This document shows positions 16,199 to 52,600 of a DNA stretch of 64,000 nt, piece by piece. Both the position numbers and the translations under genes were made by a program. The stretch's first letter is position 1, and each line of letters starts with the position of its first letter. Location: the NCBI GenBank assembly GCA_017555965.1, contig JAFZFH010000048.1, forward strand, positions 1 to 64,000, in the 5' to 3' direction. Origin of the DNA: Bacteroidales bacterium (GTDB lineage: Bacteria > Bacteroidota > Bacteroidia > Bacteroidales > UBA932). Below the pieces are notes generated by a model. That model was given only the letters and a program-made list of their open reading frames with translations, ran no database searches and had not been told where the DNA came from.

Positions 16199-16930
16199 AT
16201 GAAAGATTATCAAGAAAGAATGATCGCAGAGTTCAAGGAACTTAGCGACAAGAGAGCAAAGCTCGAAAAGTTTATGGCATCAGTATCATTTAAGAAGCTT
16301 TCCTTTTCGGAAAAGCACGATATGAGCCATCAGTTGTGCGCTATGAAAGAATACGAAAAGGCTTTATTCTCGAGATTGCAGAGAGCAGGAGTGTTCTTCT
16401 GCGGATTCGGCTATGTGGAGGTGCCTTGCGCGGCCAAAGATTGCCTTGTTGAATCTGAATCGCCATCGCATCAATGCGAAGAAGTAACAGATTCTCCTGC
16501 TCCAGCTGCTTTTGAGGGCTTCGTTGATCTTGGTCTTCCGTCGGGAACTCTTTGGGCAGAAGAAAATGCCGAGGGTTTCTATACGTTTGATGATGCCGTT
16601 GCAGAATTTGGGGATAGCCTCCCATCTGCAAGGCATATGATAGAACTATATGAGTGCTGCCAGTGGAAGTGGGACAGCGAGCGTAAGGGTTATGAGGTGA
16701 TAGGCTTGAACGGAAGCTCTATCTTCCTTCCTGCTGCCGGTTATAGATATCAGAATTCGGCCGAAGTTAGGGGAGCTGGCTCTGAGGGTAATTATTGGAC
16801 TCGTTGTCCTGACAAATTCTCCGCTGCGTACGGTCGTGGCCTCAGTTTCATTTCAGGCAGCGTGAACCCGCTGTATTACGGCTACCGTGCGTACGGCTTC
16901 TCTGTGCGCGCCGTCCGAGAATCAAATTAA
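16199..16930 (+). CDS. Second DGR target: coiled-coil plus C-type-lectin-like protein
   Basis: 243 aa. Residues 1-65 are a helical bundle or coiled coil (MKDYQERMIAEFKELSDKRA); a Pro-rich linker follows; residues 107-243 are a formylglycine-enzyme/C-type-lectin fold typical of DGR targets (VDLGLPSGTLWAEENA, FLPAAGYRYQ, GSEGNYWT, YGFSVRAVRE). The last 100 nt of the gene match the template repeat 8.6 kb away, with changes at template adenines, and the stop codon and following hairpin are identical to those of the main target. It lies at the end of the early operon, not with tail genes. A surface-binding or non-virion role is possible. Confidence 0.8.
   Translation: MKDYQERMIAEFKELSDKRAKLEKFMASVSFKKLSFSEKHDMSHQLCAMKEYEKALFSRLQRAGVFFCGFGYVEVPCAAKDCLVESESPSHQCEEVTDSPAPAAFEGFVDLGLPSGTLWAEENAEGFYTFDDAVAEFGDSLPSARHMIELYECCQWKWDSERKGYEVIGLNGSSIFLPAAGYRYQNSAEVRGAGSEGNYWTRCPDKFSAAYGRGLSFISGSVNPLYYGYRAYGFSVRAVRESN
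16819..16919 (+). repeat. DGR variable repeat 1 (VR1), remote from the RT
   Basis: 101 bp aligned to the template (25536-25636, opposite strand) without gaps. Twelve positions differ; eleven are template adenines (to T or G) and one is a T to G next to a changed A. Upstream of 16819 the proteins still align but with a 2-residue insertion and DNA identity is lost, so VR1 is shorter than VR2. Confidence 0.8.
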
Positions 16931-16940
16931 AACCTTTAAT

Positions 16941-16970
16941 CCGTCTGCCCCATTTTTACAGGGCAGACGG
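16941..16970 (+). promoter_or_regulatory. DGR target hairpin after VR1 (also a likely terminator)
   Basis: CCGTCTGCCC and GGGCAGACGG form a perfect 10-bp stem around a 10-nt loop. It lies 21 nt after the end of VR1, within a 54-nt block (16920-16973) identical to that after VR2. In known DGRs a hairpin just past the variable repeat is needed for efficient retargeting. The following GATGTTTTAT could also make it a terminator. Confidence 0.75.
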
Positions 16971-16993
16971 GATGTTTTATAAATCCACAAGTC

Positions 16994-18046: not shown

Positions 18047-20710
18047 ATGATAAAGGAACTGAAATACGGTGGTCTGACAGCCTCTCCGCTTGACTATGAA
18101 TGTAACGACGGAGATATGGCAATATCTATGGACTTGATGCCTGAGGACGGAGCGTTAAAACCGGTATTGCCGCCGAAGCGTGTGCTGAGTATCCCTGCTA
18201 CTTACAGCCTGCTTTATGTGCATGAGGGAAATGGCTATAAGAACTACATCGTTCGCAACTCTTCGGATATACTGGCTTTGCCGGAGGGATATGTGAAGCA
18301 AGAAGGCGATGATTATAGGATTCTGCTGCTGTCTTCCTCTGTCGAGCTGTATCAGATAAACGCCATAGGCAATACATTGATAATACTGACAAGTGAGGGA
18401 ATAAATTATCTTCTGTATAAGGGCTCTTCATATATAAGTTTGGGAACGGATTTTCCTGAGTGTTCTTTGTCTTTCGGTCTTTCCGGTAGCAAGATGGAGT
18501 ATTCTGACTCGGTTCAGGTTTCTTGCGCCGCTCACTCTCCGTACCATTTGGTGGGGAACAGGACTTTTGATATTACCGAGTTCTCTGACGATAATAAGAT
18601 AAAGATTACCGATGCAGTTCTTGGGCAGGTTAACAAGTTCATTGCAGAGAAGGCGACGCAAGCAGGCCGCTTCTTAATGCCTTTCTTCGTCAGGTGTGCG
18701 TTTCGACTTTACGATGGCTCTTTGACAATGCATTCGCCGCCGGTATTGATGATGTGCGACTCGGGTATTACGCCATGCTGTGGGGTGACAAGCGCGAGCG
18801 ACTCCAAAGGAGATTCGCTGAGTACCATATATACAAATACAGCAGTTACCCAATTCGATATCAAGATATTTGGAATGATCCATAGTCTTGATTACGCAGC
18901 AGGGTCAAATTCTTTTATATCAGAGCTAAAGAAGTGGTCTGATATAATTACTTCTGTCGATGTATTTATATCGGCGCCGATATATCGTCTCGATATAAAC
19001 GGCAAGTGTAAATCATTTTTGGGTCCTTATACCGACTTGGGGTACTCAATATGCAAGTTGGCGACAGGAACGCATTACGGGCATCGCTCTAATAATAATA
19101 GTAATACTGCGGAATTACTGGCTACTATAGATTTGCCAACCCGATCCTATGAGGATTATACATCCGATATTAAGGACTGCTCAAACTTTTATTTCCTGAA
19201 AAGCATTCCGATAGACAAACTGAGTGCTACAAGAAAGGTTATAGATATTGACGAAGGCTACCTCGGATCACTTGTTAATCGTGAGGTAATGACGGATGAT
19301 TACGATAGTCACGATAAATTGTTTGCGGAGCGTTCGTTTGTCTATAACAACAGGTTAAATCTGTCGGGAATCAAGAAGCGGATATTCAAAGGCTATTCGC
19401 TGTTCAGCATGTTGTGCTACAGCGACGCGCCGTACAACTACGTAAGCGCCACTGGCCGTCTGACGATTGAGGTCGAAGAGAGCGGTAAGCATTTGTGCTT
19501 TGTTGGCGATTCCGGCACTATTGGCGCGCTCACTCCTATATATTACCTCTACTATCCGAGCGCAGGGGCGAAAAAAGTGTTGTTCCAAAGAACCTACGCT
19601 GGTAGCGTTTATGAACGTGAGGTCGAATTTACCCCTCACGCGCTTCTTAACGGCTCATTCTATTATAAGGGAGGCTCAGGCATGAGCCCTGCTCTGGTGA
19701 CAACGGCGACGACAAAGACGGGAAAAGATGAGATTATAGAATACCCCAACAAATTATATACCTCGGATGTTAATAACCCGTTCTATTTTCCTGTAACAGG
19801 TATAAATACAATTGGCACGGGTTCAATATTGGGCATTAGCTCTGCTGTAAAGGCTCTTTCTCAGGGTCAGTTCGGTCAATTCCCTCTCTATGCATTCACA
19901 TCAGATGGGGTATGGGCGCTGGAAGTCAGCAATACCGGTTCATTTACTGCAAGACAGCCGGTGACGCGAGACGTCTGCGTAAATCCGGAAAGCATCACTC
20001 AAATTGATAGCGCAGTTCTGTTCGTTACAGATCGCGGTATAATGCTGCTTGCTGGATCTGAAACGACCTGTATAAGCGAAGTAATAGATGGCGCACTACC
20101 TGATATCTTGTCATATCCGTCAGGGAAGAATCTTGTCGGACTAACAGGCATTACGGAGTCCGCTTTCGAGTTTGTTGAGTTTAGGGAGTTTCTGAAAGGG
20201 TGCAGGATGTTTTATGACTATACGCATCAGAGAATTGTCGTGTTCAACCCATCGTATGGATATGCCTATGCATATTCGTTGAAGAGCAAGGCGTGGGGCA
20301 TGATGAGCTCGCAGATGAAGGCATCTGCGAATTCATATCCTGAAACTGCGGTGCAACTTAACGACGGTTCCGTCGTGGATTATACAGGAGAAGGGGATTA
20401 TGATAATCTTGTTGGGTTTATGCTTACGCGCCCGTTAAAGCTCGATAATCAGGACATTTTGAAGACCGTCTATTCTGCGATTCAGCGCGGCAAGTTTAGG
20501 AGGGATGCTGTCAAGGTTGTCCTTTATGGTTCGCGTGATCTGGAAAACTGGCACTGCGTATTCTCAAGCAATAATCAGTATTTGCGTGGCTTTGCAGGCA
20601 CTCCTTACAAGTATTATAGAATTGGTGTTATTACGTCCTTTACGACAGGGAATAGCTTGTACGGATGTAGTATCAATTATGAAAATAAACAGGTCAATGA
20701 CCTGCGTTAA
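18047..20710 (+). CDS. Probable virion protein with beta-propeller-like repeats, 887 aa
   Basis: All-beta composition with many short strands and Tyr/Gly/Ser turns. Recurrent units such as FPLYAFTSDGVWALEVSNTG and AVLFVTDRGIMLLAGSETTC are typical blade motifs. Large beta-propeller proteins of this size close the head or form the tail ring in podovirus-like phages (compare P22 gp10 type stabilisation proteins), so I suggest a neck or tail-hub role. It is transcribed from the late promoter at 17217 and ends at a strong terminator. The exact family is not certain. Confidence 0.65.
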   Translation: MIKELKYGGLTASPLDYECNDGDMAISMDLMPEDGALKPVLPPKRVLSIPATYSLLYVHEGNGYKNYIVRNSSDILALPEGYVKQEGDDYRILLLSSSVELYQINAIGNTLIILTSEGINYLLYKGSSYISLGTDFPECSLSFGLSGSKMEYSDSVQVSCAAHSPYHLVGNRTFDITEFSDDNKIKITDAVLGQVNKFIAEKATQAGRFLMPFFVRCAFRLYDGSLTMHSPPVLMMCDSGITPCCGVTSASDSKGDSLSTIYTNTAVTQFDIKIFGMIHSLDYAAGSNSFISELKKWSDIITSVDVFISAPIYRLDINGKCKSFLGPYTDLGYSICKLATGTHYGHRSNNNSNTAELLATIDLPTRSYEDYTSDIKDCSNFYFLKSIPIDKLSATRKVIDIDEGYLGSLVNREVMTDDYDSHDKLFAERSFVYNNRLNLSGIKKRIFKGYSLFSMLCYSDAPYNYVSATGRLTIEVEESGKHLCFVGDSGTIGALTPIYYLYYPSAGAKKVLFQRTYAGSVYEREVEFTPHALLNGSFYYKGGSGMSPALVTTATTKTGKDEIIEYPNKLYTSDVNNPFYFPVTGINTIGTGSILGISSAVKALSQGQFGQFPLYAFTSDGVWALEVSNTGSFTARQPVTRDVCVNPESITQIDSAVLFVTDRGIMLLAGSETTCISEVIDGALPDILSYPSGKNLVGLTGITESAFEFVEFREFLKGCRMFYDYTHQRIVVFNPSYGYAYAYSLKSKAWGMMSSQMKASANSYPETAVQLNDGSVVDYTGEGDYDNLVGFMLTRPLKLDNQDILKTVYSAIQRGKFRRDAVKVVLYGSRDLENWHCVFSSNNQYLRGFAGTPYKYYRIGVITSFTTGNSLYGCSINYENKQVNDLR

Positions 20711-20795: not shown

Positions 20796-21305
20796 TTAGA
20801 AAGGGCTCGAAGTGCGTCGCACTCTTCCGGCTCTTTTGTTTTTTGCTGAGTGTATCTTGCTTCGTATATTTTCAATCTTTTTGTCCCAGACTTCCGCATA
20901 TTTCCCTGCGGTTATACTGAGCCAATCTTCAAGGATACGATAGACAAAGTATTCGTGTATGAGCTTTGTCAGCAAAGTTACGGAACTTTTTGCAAAGTCG
21001 TCAGGAAGTTCCATTGTAATAATGTATTCCTGCGGTGCATCAAGGTCGTTGCTTGTAGTCTCTACCTTTTCACATAATTCCTTTGTGTATGGATAGAGCA
21101 TTTCTACAACCTCAGAATAGGCGAGATTGAGCACTCGGGAAACCCTGTCGATATTCCCTTCCTGACAGATGTCGAGAACTTGGTGACGGGCGTGTTCCGT
21201 GTCCACCTGCATAATGTCCCCTACGACATACGCATAGTTCCCTATATCCAGCAGCACTTCGGAGCGCTTGAATGTCAAGGTCGCTTGTTTAGTTCTCGGC
21301 TTCAT
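20796..21305 (-). CDS. Tandem paralogue family, copy 3, 169 aa
   Basis: Same architecture as the two upstream genes: N-terminal beta strands (ATLTFKRSEVLLDIGNYAYV), a helix pair, a strand segment around IITMELPDDFAKS, then LIHEYFVYRILEDWLSITAG and a basic Arg/Ser-rich C-terminus. Copies 1 and 2 show the matching ATLNMPNSFDATL and ALSMPTNYNDSTR. The conserved W near the C-terminal helix is shared by all three. Probably small virion proteins; function unknown. Confidence 0.75.
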   Translation of the reverse strand: MKPRTKQATLTFKRSEVLLDIGNYAYVVGDIMQVDTEHARHQVLDICQEGNIDRVSRVLNLAYSEVVEMLYPYTKELCEKVETTSNDLDAPQEYIITMELPDDFAKSSVTLLTKLIHEYFVYRILEDWLSITAGKYAEVWDKKIENIRSKIHSAKNKRAGRVRRTSSPF

Positions 21306-21327
21306 ATCTGTTAGGAATTATGTGGCG

Positions 21328-21825
21328 TTATTCTGTTGGAGCTGTTCGCGACGGACGTGTGCGCTTGTTAACAGCTTCGCGTATTGCCTCAACGTTCTCG
21401 GCGGCCAACGAGACATAGTCCGCTGCATCACTCTTGTTGGTGATGGTAAACCACTCTGAAATAGTCTTATTAACAATGAACTTATGCATAGCTGCTGATA
21501 GGGCTTCTCTTGTGGAATCGTTGTAGTTTGTAGGCATGGAAAGAGCCACCTTGAGTTCCGAATTTTGCTCCAGCTGTATGTTGTTAGCTGTTGTTCCTGT
21601 TTCTGCAAGATACTCGGCAAGCTTTGTCTTGAGAGTGGCAAAGGCGTCGCCGATTGAGCGAAGGATCTGGTTGATGTTTTCCTCGTCTTCGTTGGCTTTC
21701 ATGTTGGCAACCTCTTCGTGGTTGTTTCCGGTTTCGCGGCTTCTTCCTGTCAGGTGAGTCTTATTCATAACCTCGTAGAGAATCTCTGACATAAAAAGAG
21801 TGATTGTGAGTGTTTTACGTGCCAT
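21328..21825 (-). CDS. Tandem paralogue family, copy 2, 165 aa
   Basis: Begins MARKTLTITLFMSEILYEVM with a beta start, has the middle LKVALSMPTNYNDSTREALS and the helix MHKFIVNKTISEWFTITNKS, then a basic Arg/Pro end. All these align with copies 1 and 3. 22 nt separates it from copy 3 and 19 nt from copy 1. Late operon from the promoter at 22326-22367. Function unknown. Confidence 0.75.
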   Translation of the reverse strand: MARKTLTITLFMSEILYEVMNKTHLTGRSRETGNNHEEVANMKANEDEENINQILRSIGDAFATLKTKLAEYLAETGTTANNIQLEQNSELKVALSMPTNYNDSTREALSAAMHKFIVNKTISEWFTITNKSDAADYVSLAAENVEAIREAVNKRTRPSRTAPTE

Positions 21826-21844
21826 AAATGTATTGGATTATATG

Positions 21845-22321
21845 TTAAACAGTTGGCTTTACTCTGGTAGGTTTCTTCCTATAATAGATTTTGCCCTTTA
21901 CGTCTTCGAGCATGACTGCCGCGTTTTTTAAGTACGCAGACGACTCATCCTTGTTTACGTATTCATACCATTTGCCTACAATGTAGTTTGTGAAGTAGCT
22001 GAACAGGGAGTTGTTTATGCTCTCTGTTAGGGTGGCGTCGAACGAATTCGGCATATTGAGCGTTGCCGAGAAGTTGTTGCTCAGATCAATGGTGTGGCTT
22101 TCCACAAGCGTGCTGAGTCTTGCGATAAACGGCTTCAATAGTCCGACTACCGCATTGCACGCCTCATTCCAAAACCTTTCCAACGCTACGCGGTCTTCAT
22201 CTATGGTGAAGATACGCATGTACGCGCTGCCGTTCTCGTCCATCTTGGCACCGGTATATGAAGATGTCTTCGACACCTCGTCATACACATTGATCTTTGT
22301 TACAAGTATATTGATATCCAT
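21845..22321 (-). CDS. Tandem paralogue family, copy 1, 158 aa
   Basis: MDINILVTKINVYDEVSKTS opens with the shared beta segment; SATLNMPNSFDATLTESINN and SYFTNYIVGKWYEYVNKDES match the other copies. It is the promoter-proximal gene: only 4 nt lie between the -7 box and its ATG, so translation likely starts on a leaderless message. An inner Met (residue 27) would drop the conserved first strands, so the 22321 start is kept. Confidence 0.75.
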   Translation of the reverse strand: MDINILVTKINVYDEVSKTSSYTGAKMDENGSAYMRIFTIDEDRVALERFWNEACNAVVGLLKPFIARLSTLVESHTIDLSNNFSATLNMPNSFDATLTESINNSLFSYFTNYIVGKWYEYVNKDESSAYLKNAAVMLEDVKGKIYYRKKPTRVKPTV

Positions 22322-24309: not shown

Positions 24310-25500
24310 TTATGGTTTTATAATGGTTGCTCTTTCGTATCTTTCGCTAAAATCAAAGACTCTTTTAAGTGGCGAATTATCCAGTGTGAGTTTGATGGCT
24401 TTGTGTTCGCTAAAGTGCTTGAGGTAGCCGAGATGTGAGTTGAGTGAACATAGCATAGTCTGTAAGTCTGGATTGTCGCAGTCCAGCAACTTCTCGCAGG
24501 TCTTGACGCATCTGCGAAAACGTTTCATGGTGTCATTGCTCACATATCTTCTGTGATTCTTTAGTACGGCTCCGAGGAAGAATACTTCTTCCGTTGAGCT
24601 GATCATTGTTTTGCTCGGGTGCATTTTGAGTTTGAGCCTATTGCTTAGAAACTCTCCGATTGCTTCTTTGCAGTCTTCAAGGTATGCGATATTCTTGCTG
24701 ATTAGTTTTGCGTCGTCAACATATCTTCCCCAGTGCTCTCCACGCAATTCACGCTTTACGTATTGGTCAAGTGCGTTTAGATAAATGTTAGAATTAAGTT
24801 GATTGGTCACCTTCCCAATAGGGACGCCGGTCCCTAATAATGAATACCATAGACTTTTGCTTTTAGGCATTCTTTCCCTTGCGCTTTGATCGCCTATCAG
24901 TCGGCAATTCTCTAAAGGATTAGTGAATAGGTCTATCCTTATCAGATAGTCTATGAATGAAAAGTCCAGCACGTCGTTCCAAACGGTTGTGCTTCCTTTC
25001 GCAACAGGGCGATACTTATACTTCTCAAGGGTGTCGCAGATAATGCTGTACAGGATACCTTTGTTAATCCCCATGAAATATCCTGATATATCTATATTAA
25101 GCACGCCAGCTTCGTGTCTGTAGTTGTCGGTGCAGGAACGAATATGATGCTCTATCCTTTCAATTCCAAACAAAGTTCCTTTGCCTACGCGGCAGGAGTA
25201 GCTATCATAGATGAAAGTCCTCTCGAATATGGGGTTAATCATGTCAAATAGAATGTGGCTAACTGTCGCGTCGTCCACATGAGGGAAGAAAACTTCCCTG
25301 ATAGTAGGATCTTCTATCATAAAGCATCCATACGACTTTGTCTGATACTCCCGTCGGTACAAACTACGAGCTATGTCATATATTCTTTTCTCCAGTTCTA
25401 CCTCAAACTGCAATGGGTGGAAGTGATTGCGAATATTCTTCCTCTCGATGAAGTATGCCTTGGTCGTTAATTCGTGGATTTGTTCAAAGGTTAGTTCCAA
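24310..25500 (-). CDS. DGR reverse transcriptase
   Basis: About 396 aa if started at the TTG at 25498-25500 (first residues read MELTFEQIHELTTKAYFIER). The frame is open further up to 25890 but that part is the template repeat. Retroviral-type RT core: palm and fingers around IEDPTIREVFFPHVDDATVS, LNIDISGYFMGINKG, LLGTGVPIGKVTNQLNSNIY (the DGR-type IGxxxxQ variant of motif 4), and the catalytic GRYVDDAKLI at residues 258-267 (DNA 24712-24723). Copies TR RNA with errors at adenines to produce mutagenic cDNA. Start codon uncertain: no ATG lies between the template and motif 1. Confidence 0.9.
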   Translation of the reverse strand: MELTFEQIHELTTKAYFIERKNIRNHFHPLQFEVELEKRIYDIARSLYRREYQTKSYGCFMIEDPTIREVFFPHVDDATVSHILFDMINPIFERTFIYDSYSCRVGKGTLFGIERIEHHIRSCTDNYRHEAGVLNIDISGYFMGINKGILYSIICDTLEKYKYRPVAKGSTTVWNDVLDFSFIDYLIRIDLFTNPLENCRLIGDQSARERMPKSKSLWYSLLGTGVPIGKVTNQLNSNIYLNALDQYVKRELRGEHWGRYVDDAKLISKNIAYLEDCKEAIGEFLSNRLKLKMHPSKTMISSTEEVFFLGAVLKNHRRYVSNDTMKRFRRCVKTCEKLLDCDNPDLQTMLCSLNSHLGYLKHFSEHKAIKLTLDNSPLKRVFDFSERYERATIIKP

Positions 25501-25535
25501 AGTTGTAGTTGTTATAAAGGGCTGGCTCTTGAATG

Positions 25536-25718
25536 CTCGGACGGCGCGCACAGAGAAGCCGTTCGCACGGTTGTTGTTATTCAGCGGGTTCACGTTGCCT
25601 GAATTGAAATTGAGGTAACGACCGTTCGCAGCGGAGTTCGGCACCGCACACCAGTAGTTGCCGTTGCTGCCGACATTGTTGAGACCGCCGGAGTCCCTGT
25701 TGCGGTAACCTGACGCCG
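25536..25718 (-). repeat. DGR template repeat (TR), 183 bp
   Basis: Read on the minus strand it encodes many Asn (AAC/AAT) codons at positions that vary in the targets (LNNNNRANG against LSSNHRAYG in VR2). It aligns end to end with VR2 (26501-26683) and for 101 bp with VR1 (16819-16919). The 3' end is the GC-rich block shared with both VRs (initiation region), after which the TR diverges from the VR flank. It lies immediately upstream of, and in frame with, the RT. Confidence 0.92.
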
Positions 25719-25925
25719 TATTTTGTAGTACCTCGCTCTTGAACGCAGTGGCTGACGAATAGAAAGCCGATGCGGACTCCTGCGATAGCGTTGTTGCTGT
25801 CGCAAGAATGATTACTATGTAGAGTTTCCAAAACATAATGGAGATACTGAATTCAAATTGCACACTCCACACTATTGCGAATGACCGCACGGTAGTGTGA
25901 ATACTGGCTATCGCCAGCCCTGAAG
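25719..25925 (-). other. Leader between Avd and TR: RNA structure and relic of a coding frame
   Basis: Holds short hairpins (CTGGC tatc GCCAG near 25906-25919; CACACT/AGTGTG near 25860-25900). Between 25890 and 25719 there is an open frame in register with the TR that reads MFWKLYIVIILATATTLSQE, like a signal peptide, then a lectin-like run. This is probably the 5' part of the TR RNA, and the frame a relic of the gene from which the TR arose. Confidence 0.4.
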
Positions 25926-26282
25926 TTATCTGTTATTCGTTTCTTTAGTTTTGTTTAGCCATCCGACAAGCTGCCTCGTCAACTCTTCCTCTTTCCGGAT
26001 CACAACGCTGTATCCCTTTGTGGAGATGTGGTTGAGGTCTTTCATGATGCGGATTCGTATCGTTATCTTGTGCAGGTCGCTTAGCGCCTTTTCAAGGAAT
26101 GAAATCCTTTCTTCAGCTTTCTCATTCGCAAATGCAATGTGTTCCATTATCGCCATAGCCATAAGCTGCAAATCGCGGACATAGGTATATCTTATGTCGC
26201 GAGGGACTTTCTGCGTGCTCTTGATTAGCTGCATTGCCAATTCTCTTGCCTTGTTGTATGCTGGTAATTTATAGTGTTCCAT
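25926..26282 (-). CDS. avd: DGR accessory variability determinant (Avd-like)
   Basis: 118 aa, four predicted helices: PAYNKARELAMQLIKSTQKV, RDIRYTYVRDLQLMAMAIME, EKAEERISFLEKALSDLHKI, EEELTRQLVGWLNKTKE. This is the four-helix bundle of Avd, which forms a pentamer, binds the RT and the TR RNA, and is needed for mutagenic cDNA synthesis. It precedes the TR on the same strand in the standard order. A 55-aa ORF overlaps its start. Confidence 0.85.
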   Translation of the reverse strand: MEHYKLPAYNKARELAMQLIKSTQKVPRDIRYTYVRDLQLMAMAIMEHIAFANEKAEERISFLEKALSDLHKITIRIRIMKDLNHISTKGYSVVIRKEEELTRQLVGWLNKTKETNNR

Positions 26283-26436
26283 CTGAGAGTTTCTTCTTGA
26301 TTTTCCTTATAAACTCCATGCAATCTATTGGCGTTTTTGATGCGATGTCGAAATTTTCTATCTCGTTTTTCAAAGAATCCGTTCTCAGATTGATAGTTAT
26401 ATTAACCGTGGAGTTCTTTATCTTAATTCTGTCCAT
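26269..26436 (-). CDS. Small protein between VR2 and avd, 55 aa
   Basis: ATG at 26434-26436, TAA at 26269-26271, overlapping the avd start by 14 nt. Sequence MDRIKIKNSTVNITINLRTD, then LKNEIENFDIASKTPIDCME and a Lys-rich end. A beta-hairpin start followed by helices. It fills the gap between the VR hairpin and avd, so it may be an extra DGR accessory or a brake on expression. No family recognised. Confidence 0.6.
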   Translation of the reverse strand: MDRIKIKNSTVNITINLRTDSLKNEIENFDIASKTPIDCMEFIRKIKKKLSDGTL

Positions 26437-26449
26437 TGCTTTGTATATC

Positions 26450-26479
26450 CCGTCTGCCCTGTAAAAATGGGGCAGACGG
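26450..26479 (-). promoter_or_regulatory. DGR target hairpin after VR2
   Basis: Same 10-bp stem and 10-nt loop as after VR1, in the identical 54-nt block (26447-26500). It follows the stop codon of the target gene. This is the expected target-recognition hairpin and may also end transcription of the target. Confidence 0.78.
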
Positions 26480-26489
26480 ATTAAAGGTT

Positions 26490-27788
26490 TTAATTTGATT
26501 CTCGGACGGCGCGCACAGAGAAGCCGTACGCACGGTGGTTGCTACTCAGCGGGTACACGTAGCCTGAATAGAAATTGAGGTAACGACCGTTCGCAGCGGA
26601 GCCCGGCACCGCACACCAGCAGTAGCCGTAGCCGCCGACATAGTAGAGACCGCCGGAGTCCCTGCTGCGGCAACCTGACGCCGCGAAGAAATGTCCTACA
26701 GTATCATCGCTATTACGCTTAAAGAACCAGCCGGCTGTAAACGCTCCCACAACATTAAACTGCGTTGCATCAGATGTGTTGGATCCGGTAGTTGTAAAGC
26801 CTGTATATACGCGAGCGTTCGGCACTTTCCAGCCGACAGGACACGGGTCGTAAATCGTCTTTACAATTACATTGTCTGATATACCTGCAGATTGATTGCC
26901 GGCACACCAAAGATCCAGTCTTCCGTCAGGCTCCCACTTGTAAGAATTAGCCTCTGTTCCATAGAAGAAAGAATAAGGTCGCTTGATTGCGTCTGCAATC
27001 GTTGTTGCGTTTGTCTCTGCGTTTTCGGTAGTAAAGGTACGCTGACCGTAGGTCGTGATGATGCTTGTCGAGTTATACGCCCTTGGGCATGGGAACGGGT
27101 CTTTTCTTCCCCACTGGAAGTGCGGGTTCTTACCTTTTAGACGATCGGAACTGTCCCATTTCCAGCCGATGTTTACGGGCATAAAGTCATACACCTTTGG
27201 TGTTCCGTTGGTAATCTGCACTGGTGTCAGGTCTTCCGACGTAACCCAGATATGCCATGACCACATGATGTTGCCTGAGCCGTCCTTTACAGCTACGACT
27301 GCGTTGGCGCCGGTTACGGGAACGCTGTCCACTTCAAACTGGATGTACTTGCAATCGCCGCCCTCAACGATTTCGAGATTGACAAGCAAGTCAACTTCAT
27401 CCTGCCAACATATCTCAGCTGACTTAGGCATACAGTTGGCATTACCCTCAATGAATGGAGAGGTGATGTTGTTTCCGAGGTGGTTTACAAATCTCTCATA
27501 CGCCGCAGTATTGGCTACGCCGTCCTTAAGGGCATTGCCGTACACGATAGGGAATCTGTATGCTCCCGCTGCGCGGATAACATAGCAGTTTGCGGTAGAT
27601 CGTCCGAGAAGTGACGACCCGTCAGTGTCATACATCGACAGGTCTTTGTATTCTGCCGATAGAAATTTCTGTGCATCCACTACAATGAATTTTCCAGTAG
27701 TCTTGTCGTGAACTTTGAATGCCTTGTTCTTGAGCGCCGCTGGGCTGCTGTGAACAGGATAATCTAAAATGTTTACTTCGTCTGCCAT
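26490..27788 (-). CDS. Main DGR target: tail lectin / receptor-binding protein
   Basis: 432 aa. N-terminal part (1-60, MADEVNILDYPVHSSPAALK, then FKVHDKTTGKFIVV) looks like a virion attachment domain. The middle is a beta-rich jelly-like domain. The C-terminal 170 residues are the formylglycine-type C-type lectin fold (IYDPCPVGWKVPNARVYTGF, then FAASGCRSRDSGG) ending in the variable repeat (residues 369-429). It starts 4 nt after the long fibre gene, matching a tip or adaptor of that fibre. The variable Tyr/Asn/Ser/His residues should form the ligand-binding face. Confidence 0.88.
   Translation of the reverse strand: MADEVNILDYPVHSSPAALKNKAFKVHDKTTGKFIVVDAQKFLSAEYKDLSMYDTDGSSLLGRSTANCYVIRAAGAYRFPIVYGNALKDGVANTAAYERFVNHLGNNITSPFIEGNANCMPKSAEICWQDEVDLLVNLEIVEGGDCKYIQFEVDSVPVTGANAVVAVKDGSGNIMWSWHIWVTSEDLTPVQITNGTPKVYDFMPVNIGWKWDSSDRLKGKNPHFQWGRKDPFPCPRAYNSTSIITTYGQRTFTTENAETNATTIADAIKRPYSFFYGTEANSYKWEPDGRLDLWCAGNQSAGISDNVIVKTIYDPCPVGWKVPNARVYTGFTTTGSNTSDATQFNVVGAFTAGWFFKRNSDDTVGHFFAASGCRSRDSGGLYYVGGYGYCWCAVPGSAANGRYLNFYSGYVYPLSSNHRAYGFSVRAVRESN
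26501..26683 (-). repeat. DGR variable repeat 2 (VR2)
   Basis: 183 bp aligned gap-free to the TR. I count 17 differences, all at positions that are adenine in the sense strand of the TR, changing 16 codons. No difference at C, G or T. This is the pure adenine-mutagenesis pattern of an active DGR. Confidence 0.92.
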
Positions 27789-43563: not shown

Positions 43564-43606
43564 CAAAGGTATGTTGCCACGGACACCGTTACATTTTATT
43601 TATTAC
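43564..43606 (-). promoter_or_regulatory. Phage late promoter (family member B)
   Basis: Minus strand: GTAATAAATAAAA (43594-43606), 22 nt, TACCTTTG (43564-43571). The upper box overlaps the stop codon of the giant gene. Its position fixes the portal start at 43541, 22 nt past the box. Confidence 0.68.
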
Positions 43607-46600
43607 TCTTCATCCTTATGGAGTTCATCTACAAGCATCTGCTTGATTTCAGATATGCGTTGTTCGATTTCTTCCCTCTGGGTTTTGTCTGCGTATTTCA
43701 GGTTTGAATTCAGCTTGCTGACGGCGTTAACGTATCCTTTCAGTTCAACATATCTCTTGAACTCCGGTGTTTGCATGAAGCCGTTAAGGATTTCCGCATA
43801 CTCCATAGCTCCCATCTTGATCTGCTTCTTATACCCGCTGATCCTGTGCTCAATTTCGTCATGATCTTCCTTGTAGTCGAAGTACTCTCTGTTGAGCTGG
43901 CTGCCGGTCGTGCGTTCTTCTGCTTCCTGATAGAAGCTGCTTGCGATAGGCACGTTTCGCCATTCTCTCATGTCTTCATTCCATAGCATTGAAAAGGTCT
44001 TTGCGCCTTTGTTCAGGGTCTTGCCAACACCTCCGAGGTAACTTTCGAACAGATGTTCAATCAGTGCCGGATTGAGGTCTATTACACCACTCTTCACGTT
44101 GTCGCCTCCGGTGATGTCATTAAGCCATTTTGTGGCATTGACGAGCAAAGCGCTTGTGCCCTTGTAGGCTTTTGTCCATTCCGGATCCAGCTTGTTGTAG
44201 TCATTCTTCTTGTAGATAGGCTTTCCGAAGTAATCCTTATTGACGACGATCTGCGCGAATGGCTGAGCAATGGTCGGCGTAAAGTTGACGGCTATATTGC
44301 CCGCGTTGCCAGTATAATCAAGAGGGAGAAGTCCTGAAAATCCCTGAACAGCCTTTCCTATTGCGTCTTCCGCCTCCTCCTTGCCCGCAAGGCATGAGAA
44401 TGCAAGCTCTCCCATACCGAAGAATGGACGAAGTTCGTGAGGTAGAGGAATTGTAAAGTATCCGTTCTTGCTCCATGGAACAAAGAATACAAGGTTATTC
44501 CTGCGTACCCATTCCGGCAAATCCCAATAGCTGTTTTCATCGTCGTCGCCAAACATCGCCTGCATTGCTACCGCAAGCAGAGGTGTGAGCATTCCTGCCA
44601 TTGTGAACGTTGATAGAGCCATTGTAGTCTTTACCGGATGGTGGTACAGCATCTTACCGAAGTTCGCAAGGCTCTGGATGGTGGCGTTGAAGAAGATGTA
44701 GGCGAAGTTCATCACGCTTGAACCGAAGCCGCCGCTTCCTTTCTTGTTGAAGTTTACGGTGATCTCCTTTGCGTCGTACACACTATCGGCAACACTTCTA
44801 CCCATCTGCCTTGAAGTCATGTACACCATGAATCTTGTAGTATCCTCAGCACATCTATTCATGAACTCAATTCCATTCCAAAGTCCTCTCCATGTTTTTT
44901 GAGGTATCTTGGCTACTCCGTTAGCATTTGCTTCTTTCAGAAAACGCTCGATGTCGCGCTTGTAGTCCTCTACGGTATTGAGCTCTGTGAATCCTGTCTC
45001 TCCGCCGTTACGGATGAACTCGTCGAAGTATCTTTCTGTCTCGTTGCCCATGTCGAGCGTGCAGTGTTTGAACTTATAGAGCAGTACAGGGAGTTTAACC
45101 TTTATGAAAGCACCACCGATATTCTTGGTGTACTGCCTTGCATAGTCCTTGTCTTCCTTGACTGACACAGCGGTTCCTGCCCAAATGACATCTCGGAATA
45201 AGTTGGTAATGACAAATGCAGGGTTCTTTGATGTGAACATGCGCGCCATGAAGCTCTTTACAGCCTGTGCCCATCTGCGAAGACTGCTGTCGGATGCGTC
45301 AGGATTGGTCAATCCGTTGACAGCCTGCGCTGCCCTCGGATTGCCATTGATGTATATGCAGAACTCCTTGCCACCTCTCTTCACGCGGATGCAGTGCTCC
45401 TGACCTTCGTATGCTGTCACATGCTTGCCAAGTCTCAGTCCATCGCGCACCTTTGTCGCCTGCTTGGTTGCTTTAAGAGCTTCCATATCTGCCTCGAACT
45501 GCTCTACAATGTCAGATACTTGGTCTGCGGTAGCGTCCTCAGGAATCTTCGGATTGCGCGCTTCCCAGTTTCCGGTAGCAGCATCAAGGACGTACCACTG
45601 CTCGCTAACGGTTGCAAGGCTTGTAGGGTTATTAAGAACAAAATTCAGCAGTTTCTGCTTCATTAGATTGCGGTTGCCCTGAATAATAGAGCTCTCTGCC
45701 ATGTATCCTATTGTGGCTATAGGATCGTCAGCAATACTCTTTCTTCCTTCCGCTGCTTTGAGCGCAGGGGATAGTTTTGGGCGACTGCTTGATAAGTACT
45801 CATACTCATTAGCCGCTACATCGGCATCCCAGCCGCGTAATGGAATGTAGTTCTGGAACATGTCACGCACCTTTTTGTAGGTCTCTTTTGTCATAAGCCC
45901 GCTTTCGTAGCTTTTGCGCAAAGTCTCTTTAGTTGCTGCATTGATCCTGCTCCATAGGTCTGTCGTGTTGAAGCTGCTTTCAAACGAATTTACCATATCC
46001 TCGGCGAGGTCTGTGAAATTGTCCTTGCTTCCAGTAAGGTCGGTTAATCCCGAATAGTCTTCGCTGACGCTTCCGTCCCATGTTCCGCCTTCTGCTTCCG
46101 CGTCTCTCTTCGAGAATACGAGGTTTCGCTCCAGACCATGCTTTGCAATAAGGTACTTTACAATGTCTTCGTAAGTAGCGCCCTGCTTTGTAAGTTCAGC
46201 TACGGCATCCTGCAGTGGCTTATAGAAGTCTCTCATGTAAACTTCCGCCTGTCCTCTGTTCTGCGAACTCATGCGGTTTTCCGCTATGTATGCGTTCTCG
46301 TTGTGGGATATAGTCTTGCCGGTTTCTGCTACAATAGCCTCCTGTAACTTTTTCAATGCAAGCATGCTGTCCTGATAACTTTCTCTCAGTCTGTGCTTTA
46401 TATTGGCAGTCCTTGTTTTCTTACCCTCCTTATTCGTAATGCGCACGGCATCCTCATAGATGCTTCTTGCCAGCCCTGACGATGTAGGCGTTGGGCCGCT
46501 ATCTCTGAATCGAAGTTCTCCGATGCCGAGCTTATGTCTCATTACAACATCCTCGGCAACGGCAGCTGCACCATGTGACTTCTGCATCTGATAGCTTCTC

Positions 46601-49600
46601 CAGAGCATATATCGCAGGTCGTTGTCGTTGAGGTGGTAGCCAAGCGCAATCTTGGCTTTGCTCAACATGTCCGCAAAGAAGTCGCGTATCATCTCCCAGA
46701 TATTCCTGCTTTCGCGGTCTTTGAATCCCGCTTCGGCAAGTTGTGCGATGTATTCCTCGGTTGCCTCTCTTGTGTCCCAGTTTCGAGACTTTGAGAGTTC
46801 AACAATCTTTCTTCTTGTATCTTCTGAAACGTAGCGGAATATGGCGTCGAGGAAATCGTTAAAGTTCTTTGACCCAACAAGCGCCCTCAGACCCATGTGT
46901 CCTACGACTTCATGCATGACAGTTGATTCAATGTCAGCCACGCTATGGTTGTTCGGCAAGACTATTACAATTTCCTTGCTGTCTGTGTCAAACCATCCTT
47001 TTGACCGCCTCATGCGTTTTTGCTTGCTTGCATTGTCGCTTGTAAGCTCATTAGCATTAGATACGATTCGGACTTTAACTCCGAGGGAATCTCCGAGTCT
47101 GTTGGCTGCTTCCGCCATTCCTTCAGGGGTGCTTGCGTTCCTTCTTAGTATTTCGTCGTTCAGCTTTTCGATCTGCTCGTCAGTAATGGCGCCTTTCTGT
47201 CGTTTCTGCGGCTCTCTTCCTGCCTCTTTTACAATTTCGTCAACCTCCGTAGGAGTAAGGAGCCTGTTTACCTTCATGGCTCCGGTTATGATCCACGGGT
47301 CAGTTTCCGGATTCGGATTTGTTCTGTATGTGTATGCTCCGTTCTCAGGTACTCTTGGGAGTCCTGCGTATGAGTGGCGGAAATTTCCGTTTTCGGTATA
47401 GCCGTAGCTCATAGCCTCCTGCTGGTAGTCCACATCGTTGGCATATTCCACCTCTGCCCATACGAAATCCTTAGGGAACAGCTCTCTTTCTCCTGTCTCA
47501 GAATCAAGTCTATTGAACTGAAGTGCATATGGAATCTCCCCCAAGTGCCAGCCCGGACGATACGAAAGTTGTCCGCCGCCTCCCTGCGTTCCTTTACCGC
47601 CTGCCTTCACTTGTGGTCTGCCTGTCTTTGACTGTCCAGATACAGGCGCTGCATCAGCGTCGAGCCATACTCCGGTAGGGGTATCGGCTCCCTCAGGATT
47701 TGCCACCATTGGTGGGTATAGCTTGCCGTTCTTAAGATAGAATACTTTGTATCCGATACCAGTATTTACAGGCGGCTCGTTTTCGCGGATTCTATACCTC
47801 TCGTTTTCAGCTTCTTCCGGCAAAATAAGTGATTCGCTATTTGTTTTCTTAACGCCTTTTAATAACTTTGCACCTGTAATGGAATTGATAGAACTATCGG
47901 GGTTATTTGGAGTTTCTCCCTCTCCCTTCCAGCTTGACTGGCGTTCTTCTATCAGTTCCATTTCTTGCACCTCGTAGGTATAATACTTATCCCCCTGCCT
48001 TACCCTTTTTACGGTTGATTTTACGCGGTAAAGCACACCTTCTGTTTCAAAGGCATTATATAACCTCATAATATCGAAGTCGCCTCCCTTTTTGTCTGCA
48101 TGAATCTCGGCAGGGATGCCAGTGCGGATGAAATCGAGCACAGATTGTAGAGCTGCAAGATGCACAGGAATAGAGACACTTTGTTCATGGGCTTTCTTGC
48201 TCAGCATCTTATCTACCGAGTCTCTGCCAATGCTGATTCTCTCGCCTGTAAACTCGTTTATTTCTGACTTGCCTTGCAAATTTGTCCGCGCCCACTTTTC
48301 TGCTTCGTTGAAGTTTTTGAATGAGCCCTTGCTGTGTAGTATAGGGGTTTCCATACCGGCGATTTCGGATGGAGAGAACGAATGCGAGTTGTTTTCTTCG
48401 CTATCGCGATACCTGTTATTGTCTTGCTCCGGCTCTTCCTTGACCTTTACGCCCAGCTTTGAGAGTTCCTTAACAACTGTCTCGATATTGTCGATAGTAA
48501 TATCAGCCCTCAACTGACCGCGATAAGGATAGAAGCCATGACTGTGGACGGCTTTCAATATAGCCTTGTTTTCAAAGAATTTAGCTCCATCCTTTTTTGT
48601 CTTCGGCACGGTGAGGTAGAACATTTCAGCCCATTTGCTGCCTGAAATCATAACCTTGCCATCGTGGCTTTCAACAGGAGTGAAATTCTTGATCTGCCTC
48701 AAAAGACTTATCAGGGGAGCGCCGCTTGTCTTTAGCATTGAAGCGTTCCATTTGTCAGGCATTAGAATACCGTCATGAATATTTCCGTCGATGTCAGTAT
48801 AGCTGATAAGCTGCCCCGGATAGCCACCATACTCGTCTTGTGTGTCAGCAATTGCCTGAAGGATGTTTCCAGTCATAATATAGCCTTCTTTGCGAGTCTC
48901 GTTAGGTATTTGACTGTCCCAGTTTTCAAGGGTTGTATTCTGCGCTGTATCCCAGTTCAAGTCGGTCGTTCTTTTGATACTGTCAAGCGCTCCTATCTGT
49001 GATAACTTAACCTCCACGCGCCTGCGTCCGTCAAGCGTTGCGAAGACTGCAAAAGTTGTAGATGCTGTAATCTTGCTCTCTTTCGCCTTGTATCCGCAGA
49101 AGATAGCAGGTGAAGCAAAATCGAATATCATTGATTCAAGGTTCTCAGGAACGAGGTATGATCTGCCCACTGAAAACATTCTGAGTCTGCGCATCAGCTG
49201 ATCGCTATTTGCGTTGATTCTTGCGATATTGTCGCTATGCTTTTCCTCGATCTTGTCGTTAGTTTCCTGAGTGTAGCTTGCAATAGCAGTCAGCTTTTCT
49301 TCCTCACTGCGTTTCTGCTGGCGGTTTATCTTTTCCGCTTGCTTTGCGATGTCCTCAGCTGCTTTCTCTTTTGCTTTTTCGTATCTGCGGTCTTCGGCGG
49401 CAAGTCTTGCCTCATCTTCCGTTAGGATTGTATCAATAATTGTCTGGCGGTAGTCGTCAGGGTTCATGCTTTTGTTTACCTGCTCAATGGTCTTTCGTAC
49501 TTCTTCTGCCTTCATTGGCTTGCGCAGTACGTCCATTTCCACCCTTTCTACAAAAGAGTTGCGTGCAAAAGGGTTGTCGCCGTTAGGGTCAATACCTTCT

Positions 49601-52600
49601 GAGGATACGCGCCTCTCGATCGTCTTTGCCTTTAGCGGCATGACGGTAATCTTAAGGTCGTTGTTTCCGGTGTCGTTGAGATATTTGATTAGCTCATTGT
49701 ATCTTCTTACGACATCGTCGTAGAAGTCTTCCTGCTCTTTTGTCGTCAGAAGGGCTACATATCCTGTCACTCTGCGTGCATCATCCTCTTGTGCCTTGTA
49801 TTCATCAAGGTCATTGGATGAAACGCTGCCTCCTCCCTGAGCTCCCTTCTTGAGTGGGGCGCCCATTTTTTCGTATATGTCAATGTTGTCTCGCAAGTAC
49901 TCAACGACAACTTGACTTCCATACTTATTAAGAAGGTCAGGAGCCTCCACATCATTACTCTCGCTGTCCTGTGATGTAGTAGTGTTAGCATTCAGAGATT
50001 TCAGCTTTGTTGAGAGCATCATAAGGAAGCGGTTTTCAGCTGGGACAGGCAATCCGAGGTTTATGTAGTATCCTCTATGAACCTGTCCTGTGCGGTCAAT
50101 GCGTCCTATCATCTGCATATAGTCGTTGATGTCACTCAAAGGCTGAGCGATAATCATTGAACGCTGGCGCTGATCACTGAACTTCTCGGATGCATGCAAA
50201 CTGATACCAGTTGAGGCTGATTTGTTGAGGATAAGGACATCGAGTTTCCCGCTGTTGAAGTCTCTCTGCATCCTCTTTTTATCTTTATCCGTCCTCTTCC
50301 TTACTACGACTCTTCCAGAATCGTCGTGTTCTACATACATGTCGCGACCAGTGAGCTCACCTACCTTGTAGCCCTTTTCTCTCAGTCTCTCAATAATAGC
50401 GTCGAGTGGGCTTATAAATATACCGGTGGTGCTTTGCTTGATAAATTCCTGAAGCTCGTAGTATGCTTTCTCACCAGCGCTTCCGAGCTGCGATGGCGTA
50501 TAGCGCTCGTGACGCTCTTTGCCGTTCTCGTCTTTTACGGTGTATTGCATTACGGTATCAAGTCCCCTCAGCAGGCTTGCGCTGAATGTTGGTTCAGATA
50601 TCACCTCACCTACGGTGTAGTCCTTGATATTGCTTTCCATTGTGCTTTCCAAGGCTATTACAGGGTGCCTGCCGGCTTTGATTTCAGCCTCGACTTCATT
50701 GGCAATAGCTTCTACTTTGAGCGCAAGCATGAGCTGCTTGGTGTAATTATACGTCTTGCTTGCAAATGGCACATTTTCTACGCCAAGCTTATTTGTTCCT
50801 CTCTTGATTCCGGCGCTTTCTGCATATACAGCAAGCTCAGCATCAAGATTTGCAATCATAGGCTTCACATAGTCCTCTTGGAACTTAATGATGGCATTGA
50901 AGGCAGCGATAGTGCTGTCGTAATTCTCCCTTGCACGTCTTACGGTCTCAGGATCATTGATGGTCTTCCAGTCGGTAACGACGCCAGCCATGTCGCGCTC
51001 TCTGCGTACCATCTGTCCAGCGTTTGTGAGCTCCCTACTCATGATTTCCTGCAATGTGACTCCGCCCTTTTCAATAATGCTTATAAGCTTGTCAGGCTCT
51101 ACTTTAGCCTGACTCATAGCAGTGCGAATGGCGTATAGTGGCATTGTGTCAGGGCGTTTTGCAAACGTTGCGCTGGCAAAGGTTACGGCTTTTGCGCTGC
51201 GGATGATGCTCTGTAGATACATTCCGGTGTTGCTGGATCCTGCCGCCGTATGACTTTCGTCAAGGAAGATGTAATTGTTTTCTGCAATCGAACGCAGGAA
51301 TGTTGCTTTAGGAGTAGCCTTTCCTTCTTTTGCACTCTTACTCTTTTTCGCTCTGCGACCTGCAGATTTTGCTGCATTGTCAGCTTCTTGCTGGCTGACT
51401 GCGTCGCCGGTGTTTACCTGAGAGTATGTTAATACAGCAAAGTCGTATTCGTCTGGGAGAACACCTGACTCCATGACCTTTTTCATAGCAGCATCCGAAA
51501 GACCTTTATAAACGATGTTTCCGTTTACGTCAACCATCTCTCCCTTATTCTCTTTTGCAGAAGGGGAGTTGAAAATAAATGGCACAAGGTCTCCACTTCC
51601 GATATCTACCAAGTCGCGATAAATATCAGAGAATAGGTCTGCTTTCTGTGTAATGAAGATAGGTTTTTCTCCGCGCCTTACAGCCCAGCGGATAAGCGCA
51701 GCCATCTGTCGTCCCTTGCCGACTCCTGTTTGGTCTCCGATAATAAGTGCCTGACCTTGCTTCATCTGATAGATAGCCATTGCTACGCTATCCATCTGTT
51801 CAGCAGCAAGCGCTAAGTGGGTTTCAGAAAGAGTCTCATATCCGAGCTCGTTCTTTACGAATTCGTCAATACTTCCGTGCTTGGCTTCAATCTGCGTAAG
51901 CACGTTATCCATAGCCTCAACCATAGCGGCAGGGGCTACGCTTTCAAGGCTAAATGCTGTGTTGTGCGGTCTATACGGCAGCTTTTCTTCAGAAAGTCCG
52001 CGTTTCTTGGACTCTTGCTTTAATCCCAGTCTGCTTGGTTGAACGTCCAGTCCATCCACTGGCTGAGTCCCATTTCCCACAGCTCGTTGTTCAGGTCTTC
52101 CTCCGACATTTCGAGGCTCTCCAGCGGTACCAGCTCTGTTCCCGGTCTTGCCAGCTGCAACATTCTGTCTTCGTTCTCCCAGTACAGGCTTCTGGCGTTC
52201 CTGAGCGTCTCTCTCCAATCCGGCTCTTCCTCGCCCTCCTGCTCTGCTTGTACCCTCATCATCCTTCGCAGGTTGTCTATTATGTCCTGCTCCGTCAGTA
52301 TTCCGTCGTGATCCGTCAGTGTCAGGTTGAGGTCGCCCTCCTTGGCTACGTAAAATTTCTGTTCCATTTGTCTTATCGTTAGATTTGAGTAATACATCTA
52401 TGATATCATAGAGCTCGTCAAAGCTTTCAGCCTTTCGGATTGCCGCGCCCTCCACAGGAGGATATACGGCGGTCTGTGCACGCTCTTCCTCGCTTCTTCT
52501 GCCCTCGATAAGAATCATTCTTGTCGGGAATGTTGTACCCTGCCTTGCGTACATTCTACCGTCCATATCTACGACGCCTTTCACGTTGTAGTGATCATAC

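Follow-up and report, generated by a model that had tools for sequence, protein, structure and literature searches.

Diversity-generating retroelements (DGRs) of phages are usually accounted for as a means of switching surface receptors, and the published systems, cited here from excerpts of the papers concerned, provide several points of comparison for a cassette with a distant second target. In Bordetella phage BPP-1, inverted repeats directly downstream of the variable repeat (VR) form a hairpin or cruciform without which homing is inefficient, and a foreign gene given the homing-start sequence plus this hairpin becomes a target of the DGR (PMC3240598). BPP-1 resembles the locus described here in having a reverse transcriptase (RT), a template repeat (TR), a VR and a hairpin after the VR, but it is described with one native target, whereas our locus has two (PMC3240598). 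A single tail-side VR is described in the excerpts of the hankyphage papers, and the survey by Roux (2021), in the portion available, reads most viral targets in three DGR clades as belonging to tails. Two-target DGRs are reported in the Faecalibacterium paper, also cited in part. The tentaclin phages nd4 and nd12 have, like our locus, one TR and two different lectin targets; unlike in our locus, the DGR cassette itself contains the two targets, and the excerpted text discusses them as receptor-binding or virion proteins (PMC10743442). The Bacuni phages of Bacteroides uniformis also have two targets, one of them distant as in our locus, and in the passages at hand their authors read both as host adhesion (PMC8143477).

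Going by its description in excerpts of the paper, Quimbyvirus is, like the phage considered here, a Bacteroides phage with a tail-side target and an opposite-strand distal target; the distal one, a C-type lectin, lies near a nuclease, methyltransferases and a tRNA ligase, and was read as suggestive of a non-structural role (Benler et al. 2021, PMC8008677). Unlike in our phage, the Quimbyvirus RT is split over three frames, and the excerpts make no mention of a crAss001_48 fusion (PMC8008677). Among induced gut prophages, four prophage species were found to have distal second VRs near counter-defence genes; our material is likened to theirs by description, and the available part of that paper does not describe a contig pair such as the one presented below (Nature 2025, PMC12629997). 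Distal, apparently non-structural second targets are therefore already in print (Benler 2021; Nature 2025), and the kind is known. What is new in the 64,000-nucleotide stretch of Bacteroidales DNA analysed here (the window) and in its relatives is a fusion of a crAss001_48 domain to a lectin-like domain, the recurrence of remote targets and a natural experiment in the form of two nearly identical phage contigs, G786 and G787. Within the open-licence PMC papers, our searches turned up neither a crAss001_48-lectin target nor contigs that differ only in a distal VR, and no paper on crAss001_48 or its Pfam family PF21825.

One template and two target genes in the window

The window carries a tailed-phage genome, kin of the Bacteroides phages BKO1-TP3 and BS-TP4, and its DGR spans 24310-26683. 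The RT gene (24310..25500, minus strand; RVT_1 above cut-off, PHROG 1423) adjoins a 186-bp TR (25533..25718, minus strand), and an accessory variability determinant (Avd; 25926..26282, minus strand) is recognized by PHROG 3206, 'Avd protein of DGR', at E 1.2e-15, while in Pfam this frame matches bAvd below its cut-off and 23S_rRNA_IVP above. The near target (26490..27788, minus strand) has a weak, below-cut-off match to Fib_succ_major and adjoins a 2205-aa gene with tail-protein matches, from which we infer that its product is a receptor binder. Its VR, VR2 (26498..26683, minus strand), matches all of the TR with 18 differences, 17 of them at TR adenines, and is followed by a 54-nt tail with a hairpin (26447..26500, minus strand).

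The second, remote target (16199..16930, plus strand) encodes a protein of 243 aa with a crAss001_48 N-terminal domain and a lectin-like C-terminus. A distance of ~7.4 kb separates it from the RT gene, and the DGR and the tail-side lectin gene are on the other strand. As the first-pass annotation had noticed, its N-terminus is unlike that of the tail-side lectin: aa 2-62 (16202..16384, plus strand) match PF21825 at E 6e-14, the sole PF21825 match in the examined part of this genome, and the N-terminal part also matches PHROG 774, a family of unknown function. Over its C-terminal half, the VR1 protein can be aligned with lectin-like proteins of a 'DLGLPSG' family; neither the Pfam lectin models nor any PDB chain gave a match to it (PDB searches with the queries VR1p, A3, p887 and A4 gave nothing usable), so the fold is deduced from the family and the link to the DGR. 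VR1 itself (16819..16919, plus strand) is a true DGR variable repeat: over 101 bp, which correspond to the 3' part of the TR, it differs from the TR at 12 positions, 11 of which are TR adenines, the exception being a T>G at 16838. If the aligned block is taken at its full 104 bp, 11 of the 13 differences are at A (hypergeometric p = 6.6e-7), and this adenine bias by itself rules out a chance similarity between TR and VR1.

The tail proposed to be shared by the two targets is indeed identical. The 54 nt after VR1 (16920..16973, plus strand) include the stop codon TAA (16928-16930) and a 10-bp stem (16941-16950/16961-16970) that begins 22 nt after VR1; the same 54 nt follow VR2 and are absent after the TR. 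Accordingly, the window holds inverted repeats of 104 nt (16819-16922/25533-25636, 88%) and of 155 nt (16819-16973/26447-26601, 90%). A search with the TR (E <= 0.01) of the window's genome, which is 86% complete, returned three copies only, namely TR, VR1 and VR2. The proposal that one DGR serves two proteins thus stands insofar as the remote gene codes for another kind of protein and lies at a distance from the tail module; the receptor-binding role given to the first is an assignment from its matches and neighbour.

Several other features of this genome deserve mention. The open frame of the RT runs upstream through the TR to 25890 (24310-25890, minus strand), with the TR in the VR reading frame and a hydrophobic stretch before it. 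A TR open into the RT is found in 13 of 27 DGRs by script and in one more (G236) by direct reading, which seems to be more than chance would give. Three neighbouring ORFs at 20796-22321 (minus strand) have PHROG matches that overlap (all three to family 19255, two of them to 35482) and are apparent paralogues. A single ORF of 5819 aa occupies 43603-61062 (minus strand); its counterpart by position in BKO1-TP3, following the portal gene, is a giant gene with the annotation 'DarB-like antirestriction'. There is also a second reverse transcriptase in the window's genome (L002, G000:C38:3530-4093).

Variation of the remote repeat between related phages

A relative of the window's phage is found on a 10-kb contig from a sheep-cecum Bacteroidales MAG (L039), which has the window's layout, an RT with 80% amino acid identity, its own TR and VR2, the end of the VR1 gene and downstream genes in the window's order. 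Scored symmetrically, i.e. with all mismatches treated alike, as was also done for the adenine counts of the window, G354 and G236, the VR1 of L039 differs from its own TR at 14 positions, 13 of them adenines. The TRs of the two phages differ at 8 of 104 sites, and at all eight both VR1 and VR2 carry the base of their own TR. Between the two VR1 copies, 27 of 104 sites differ: 18 are A in both TRs, 8 are the sites at which the TRs differ and 1 is of another kind. The 54-nt tail is identical (54/54) after all four VRs of the two phages. The first-pass annotation had proposed two tests, whether VR1 varies across related phages and whether the shared tail reflects a recent recombination with identical flanks further out. 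VR1 does vary, mainly at TR adenines (18 of the 27 sites), and the identity ends after the hairpin, with DNA identities of 74% for the RT gene and, in ungapped comparisons, of 181/234 (77%) for p77 and 283/405 (70%) for p134; neither outcome refutes the proposal. At the level of sequence, then, the remote repeat of these phages displays adenine-specific change, copying from the local TR and a hairpin in common with the near repeat.

The remote gene is missing from some kin. BKO1-TP3, BS-TP4 and BF1-TP2 all have p887, and p77 and p134 are present in the first two as well, yet a search of the examined parts of the three genomes with the VR1 protein gave no match, so the gene is accessory and not essential to the phage type. 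In the part of BS-TP4 that was examined there is a near VR only, and a scan of BKO1-TP3 for TR/VR pairs found none.

Single-protein scans of viral contigs with the VR1 protein and the RT, together with a pattern scan, returned no relative; an alignment-based scan of IMG/VR gave 13 loci, among which six useful records (L125-L130) hold a homologous target, five of the six together with an RT. Two of these records, the 46.7-kb phage contigs G786 and G787, amount to a natural experiment. In an ungapped, unscored comparison, they are identical over 46,584 bases, 7,602 before and 38,982 after the remote VR, and differ at 18 sites, all of which are inside the 110-bp remote VR and 16 of which are at TR adenines. 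The near VR and the TR are identical in the two. A third contig, G788, has a further variant of the remote VR and is ~97% identical where aligned. As read from these contigs, recent diversification of the remote VR has occurred in a homologous system (G786-G788), not in the window's phage.

Recurrence and neighbourhoods of remote targets

How often does a DGR have a remote target? We surveyed 398 genomes of the window's family, 31 of which have an RT at E <= 1e-30, at 32 places, and scanned the flanking DNA. Segments of 50 bases with at least 7 A, taken in 5-base steps within 1.5 kb around each RT on both strands, were compared with the examined contig DNA; all groups listed (at least 2 segments) were TR/VR pairs, their reciprocals or VR-VR pairs, which serves as an internal control. 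TR/VR pairs were found at 24 of the 32 RT places; six of the 32 have a second VR at a distance of over 4 kb from the RT (the window, G354, G236, G382:C15, G394:C2 and G195:C11), a count that is a lower bound because many contigs are short. By symmetric scoring, the differences lie at TR A in 15 of 16 cases for the remote VR of G354 and in 13 of 14 for that of G236. Beyond the survey, remote VRs also occur in L039, Bacuni F2, G785, G789, G790 and G786-G788. The alignments used for Bacuni F2, G382, G394, G195 and G785-G790 penalized mismatches at TR A less, so that their adenine fractions and p-values lean towards the DGR pattern; with this leaning, the fractions are 22/22 for G382:C15, 19/19 for G394:C2, 11/13 for Bacuni F2, 13/16 for G789, 14/14 for G790 and 6/6 for G195:C11, a Bacuni-like prophage whose remote VR (157.5-158.3 kb) has only 51 bp of TR homology and is frameshifted within the VR. 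Two tandem remote targets lie at 13590-14519 of L125 (G785, reverse orientation), one with a VR in which 14 of 16 differences are at A and one with a decayed VR (13 of 27), counted in the same A-favouring manner. Elsewhere in the collection, the DGR target protein of L050 (G149:C9, 9852-11480, minus strand) starts with a lipoprotein-like signal sequence, and this DGR is perhaps cellular.

The distant target of Bacuni F2, gp29 in the partial genome examined, is an Lcl_C-like lectin (below the Pfam cut-off) with an N-terminus other than the window's. Pfam scans of five other remote targets (G354, G236, G382, G394 and Bacuni F2) did not find the crAss001_48 domain. Hairpins recur to varying degrees. 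In the window and L039, there is a hairpin shortly 3' of each VR and none after the TR; the two VRs of G354 have the same downstream hairpin sequence and those of G236 nearly the same; the hairpins that go with the two VRs of Bacuni F2, of G195 and of G786 agree in position but only in part in sequence. For the remote VRs of G382 and G394, the downstream sequence showed no GC-rich hairpin comparable to the others, and a route by way of a shared hairpin is therefore not valid for all of these phages.

Where do the remote genes lie? In G354, the target follows the repressor and integrase, as the first ORF of at least 70 aa past the repressor and on the other strand, and precedes a gene with a weak helicase-loader match. 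In G236, it adjoins a polynucleotide kinase and an endonuclease, with a weakly Toprim-like gene further on and, ~7 kb downstream on the same strand, a head maturation protease, which counts against an intracellular role. One small gene separates the G786 target from DNA primase, and the G195 target is upstream of primase. In G790, the target comes after exonuclease, SSB, NinB, DnaB helicase and pyrophosphohydrolase and, like that of the window, is on the other strand from the DGR; in Bacuni F2, DNA polymerase is on one side and a methyltransferase on the other. In two Mu-like phages (L107, G382:C15, and L116, G394:C2), the remote target directly adjoins a Mu-type transposase gene. In all eight phages outside the window's lineage for which neighbours could be typed, the remote gene thus adjoins genes of lysogeny, replication, nucleic-acid processing or transposition. 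Most typed neighbours are of these kinds, many others have no informative match, and gene position bears on function only indirectly.

The window is less clear-cut than its relatives in this respect. Its remote gene is preceded on the same strand by genes for RecT, exonuclease VIII, a helicase and replication initiation, and is followed, after three small genes, by the conserved gene p887 (18047..20710, plus strand), which belongs to a family of five members, three to four of which have weak matches to internal virion and structural families. Since p887 may be a virion protein, the VR1 gene that precedes it could be expressed late. The earlier view that the gene is early, not late, is thus favoured by the strand that it shares with recombination and replication genes and weakened by p887; we judge from gene order that it is likely early, and the placement in an early region appears clearer in the relatives than in the window. 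Similarly, the second VR is far from the RT and on the other strand, and a position outside the structural module is likely in the typed relatives and, given p887, uncertain in the window. The suggestion that the protein might be displayed on the host finds no support: a simple Kyte-Doolittle hydropathy scan, run at the usual threshold and on a G382 protein lacking its first residue, gives no signal peptide or transmembrane segment in any of six remote targets (window, G354, G236, G382, G394 and Bacuni F2).

Possible roles of the remote protein

One explanation that needs no function for the remote repeat is that the VR end and hairpin were copied once from the VR2 gene by ordinary recombination and are no longer acted on by the DGR. 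VR1 and VR2 do have 54 nt in common beyond the TR homology, and there is a decayed copy in G785 (14 of 27 differences not at A) and a frameshifted one in G195. A relic of a single recombination would not, however, track the local TR at 8/8 sites, vary between phages mainly at TR adenines or be the one thing that separates G786 from G787, and on these grounds we reject it as very improbable. A more substantial alternative is that the remote target is also a virion protein, be it a minor tail, decoration or internal (ejected) protein, and that its distance from the tail genes is an accident of gene order. The weak virion matches of p887 downstream on the same strand point in this direction, and there is precedent in two-target phages (tentaclins, Bacuni), for which the excerpts available treat both targets as proteins of the virion or of adhesion. 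Against it, we set the typed neighbours of the eight phages outside the window's lineage and the remote proteins themselves, which are small (149-268 aa) and, in G354 and G236, resemble the window's tail-side target solely at its C-terminal end. Moreover, the two VRs of seven phages share residues at 22 of 93 variable codons, and one pair of the seven exceeds shuffles (G382, p ~0.03); this gives no general sign of a common ligand, and the two proteins probably meet different ones. We regard a virion role as unlikely, while still giving it appreciable weight.

A further possibility is that the remote protein has its function in the lysogen or is directed at rival phages, in superinfection exclusion or as a sensor with a varying ligand. 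The place of the G354 target just past the repressor, on the other strand, and of the targets beside transposase in the Mu-like phages would suit such a role; targets embedded among replication genes in G786, G790 and Bacuni F2 would not, and we think a role of this kind improbable. We favour instead, with somewhat better than even confidence, the view that VR1 is a live second DGR target reached through the shared TR 3' end and hairpin, and that its product is a putative soluble intracellular binder for takeover or counter-defence. In this mechanism, RT and Avd would copy TR RNA with errors at adenines, and the cDNA would home to two sites, VR2 and VR1, that have the same TR 3' homology and then the same hairpin. 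VR1 has homology to just the last 101 bp of the TR, and rewriting would therefore be confined to the C-terminal part of the lectin-like domain. By analogy, the window holds a natural counterpart of the BPP-1 retargeting experiment, with two otherwise different genes on opposite strands that carry the same TR 3' end and hairpin. The product would be a soluble cytoplasmic binder whose variable face meets variable molecules of the host or of rival phages, and the crAss001_48 domain might be its oligomerizing or effector part.

The broader proposal, to which we give an even chance, is that several Bacteroidales phage lineages carry a DGR-driven hypervariable cytosolic lectin, made from the same template as the tail-side lectin and used early against variable host defences or targets, and that in at least one phage type this lectin is changing while the tail-side lectin stays fixed. 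With the G786/G787 pair and the Bacuni isolates, these ideas can be put to the test. A second target that recurs among replication and lysogeny genes, and that changes while the tail target and the rest of the genome are fixed, suggests that targeted hypermutation can be selected for reasons other than adsorption. If the remote product does act inside the cell, these phages would have a self-diversifying binder for the intracellular arms race.
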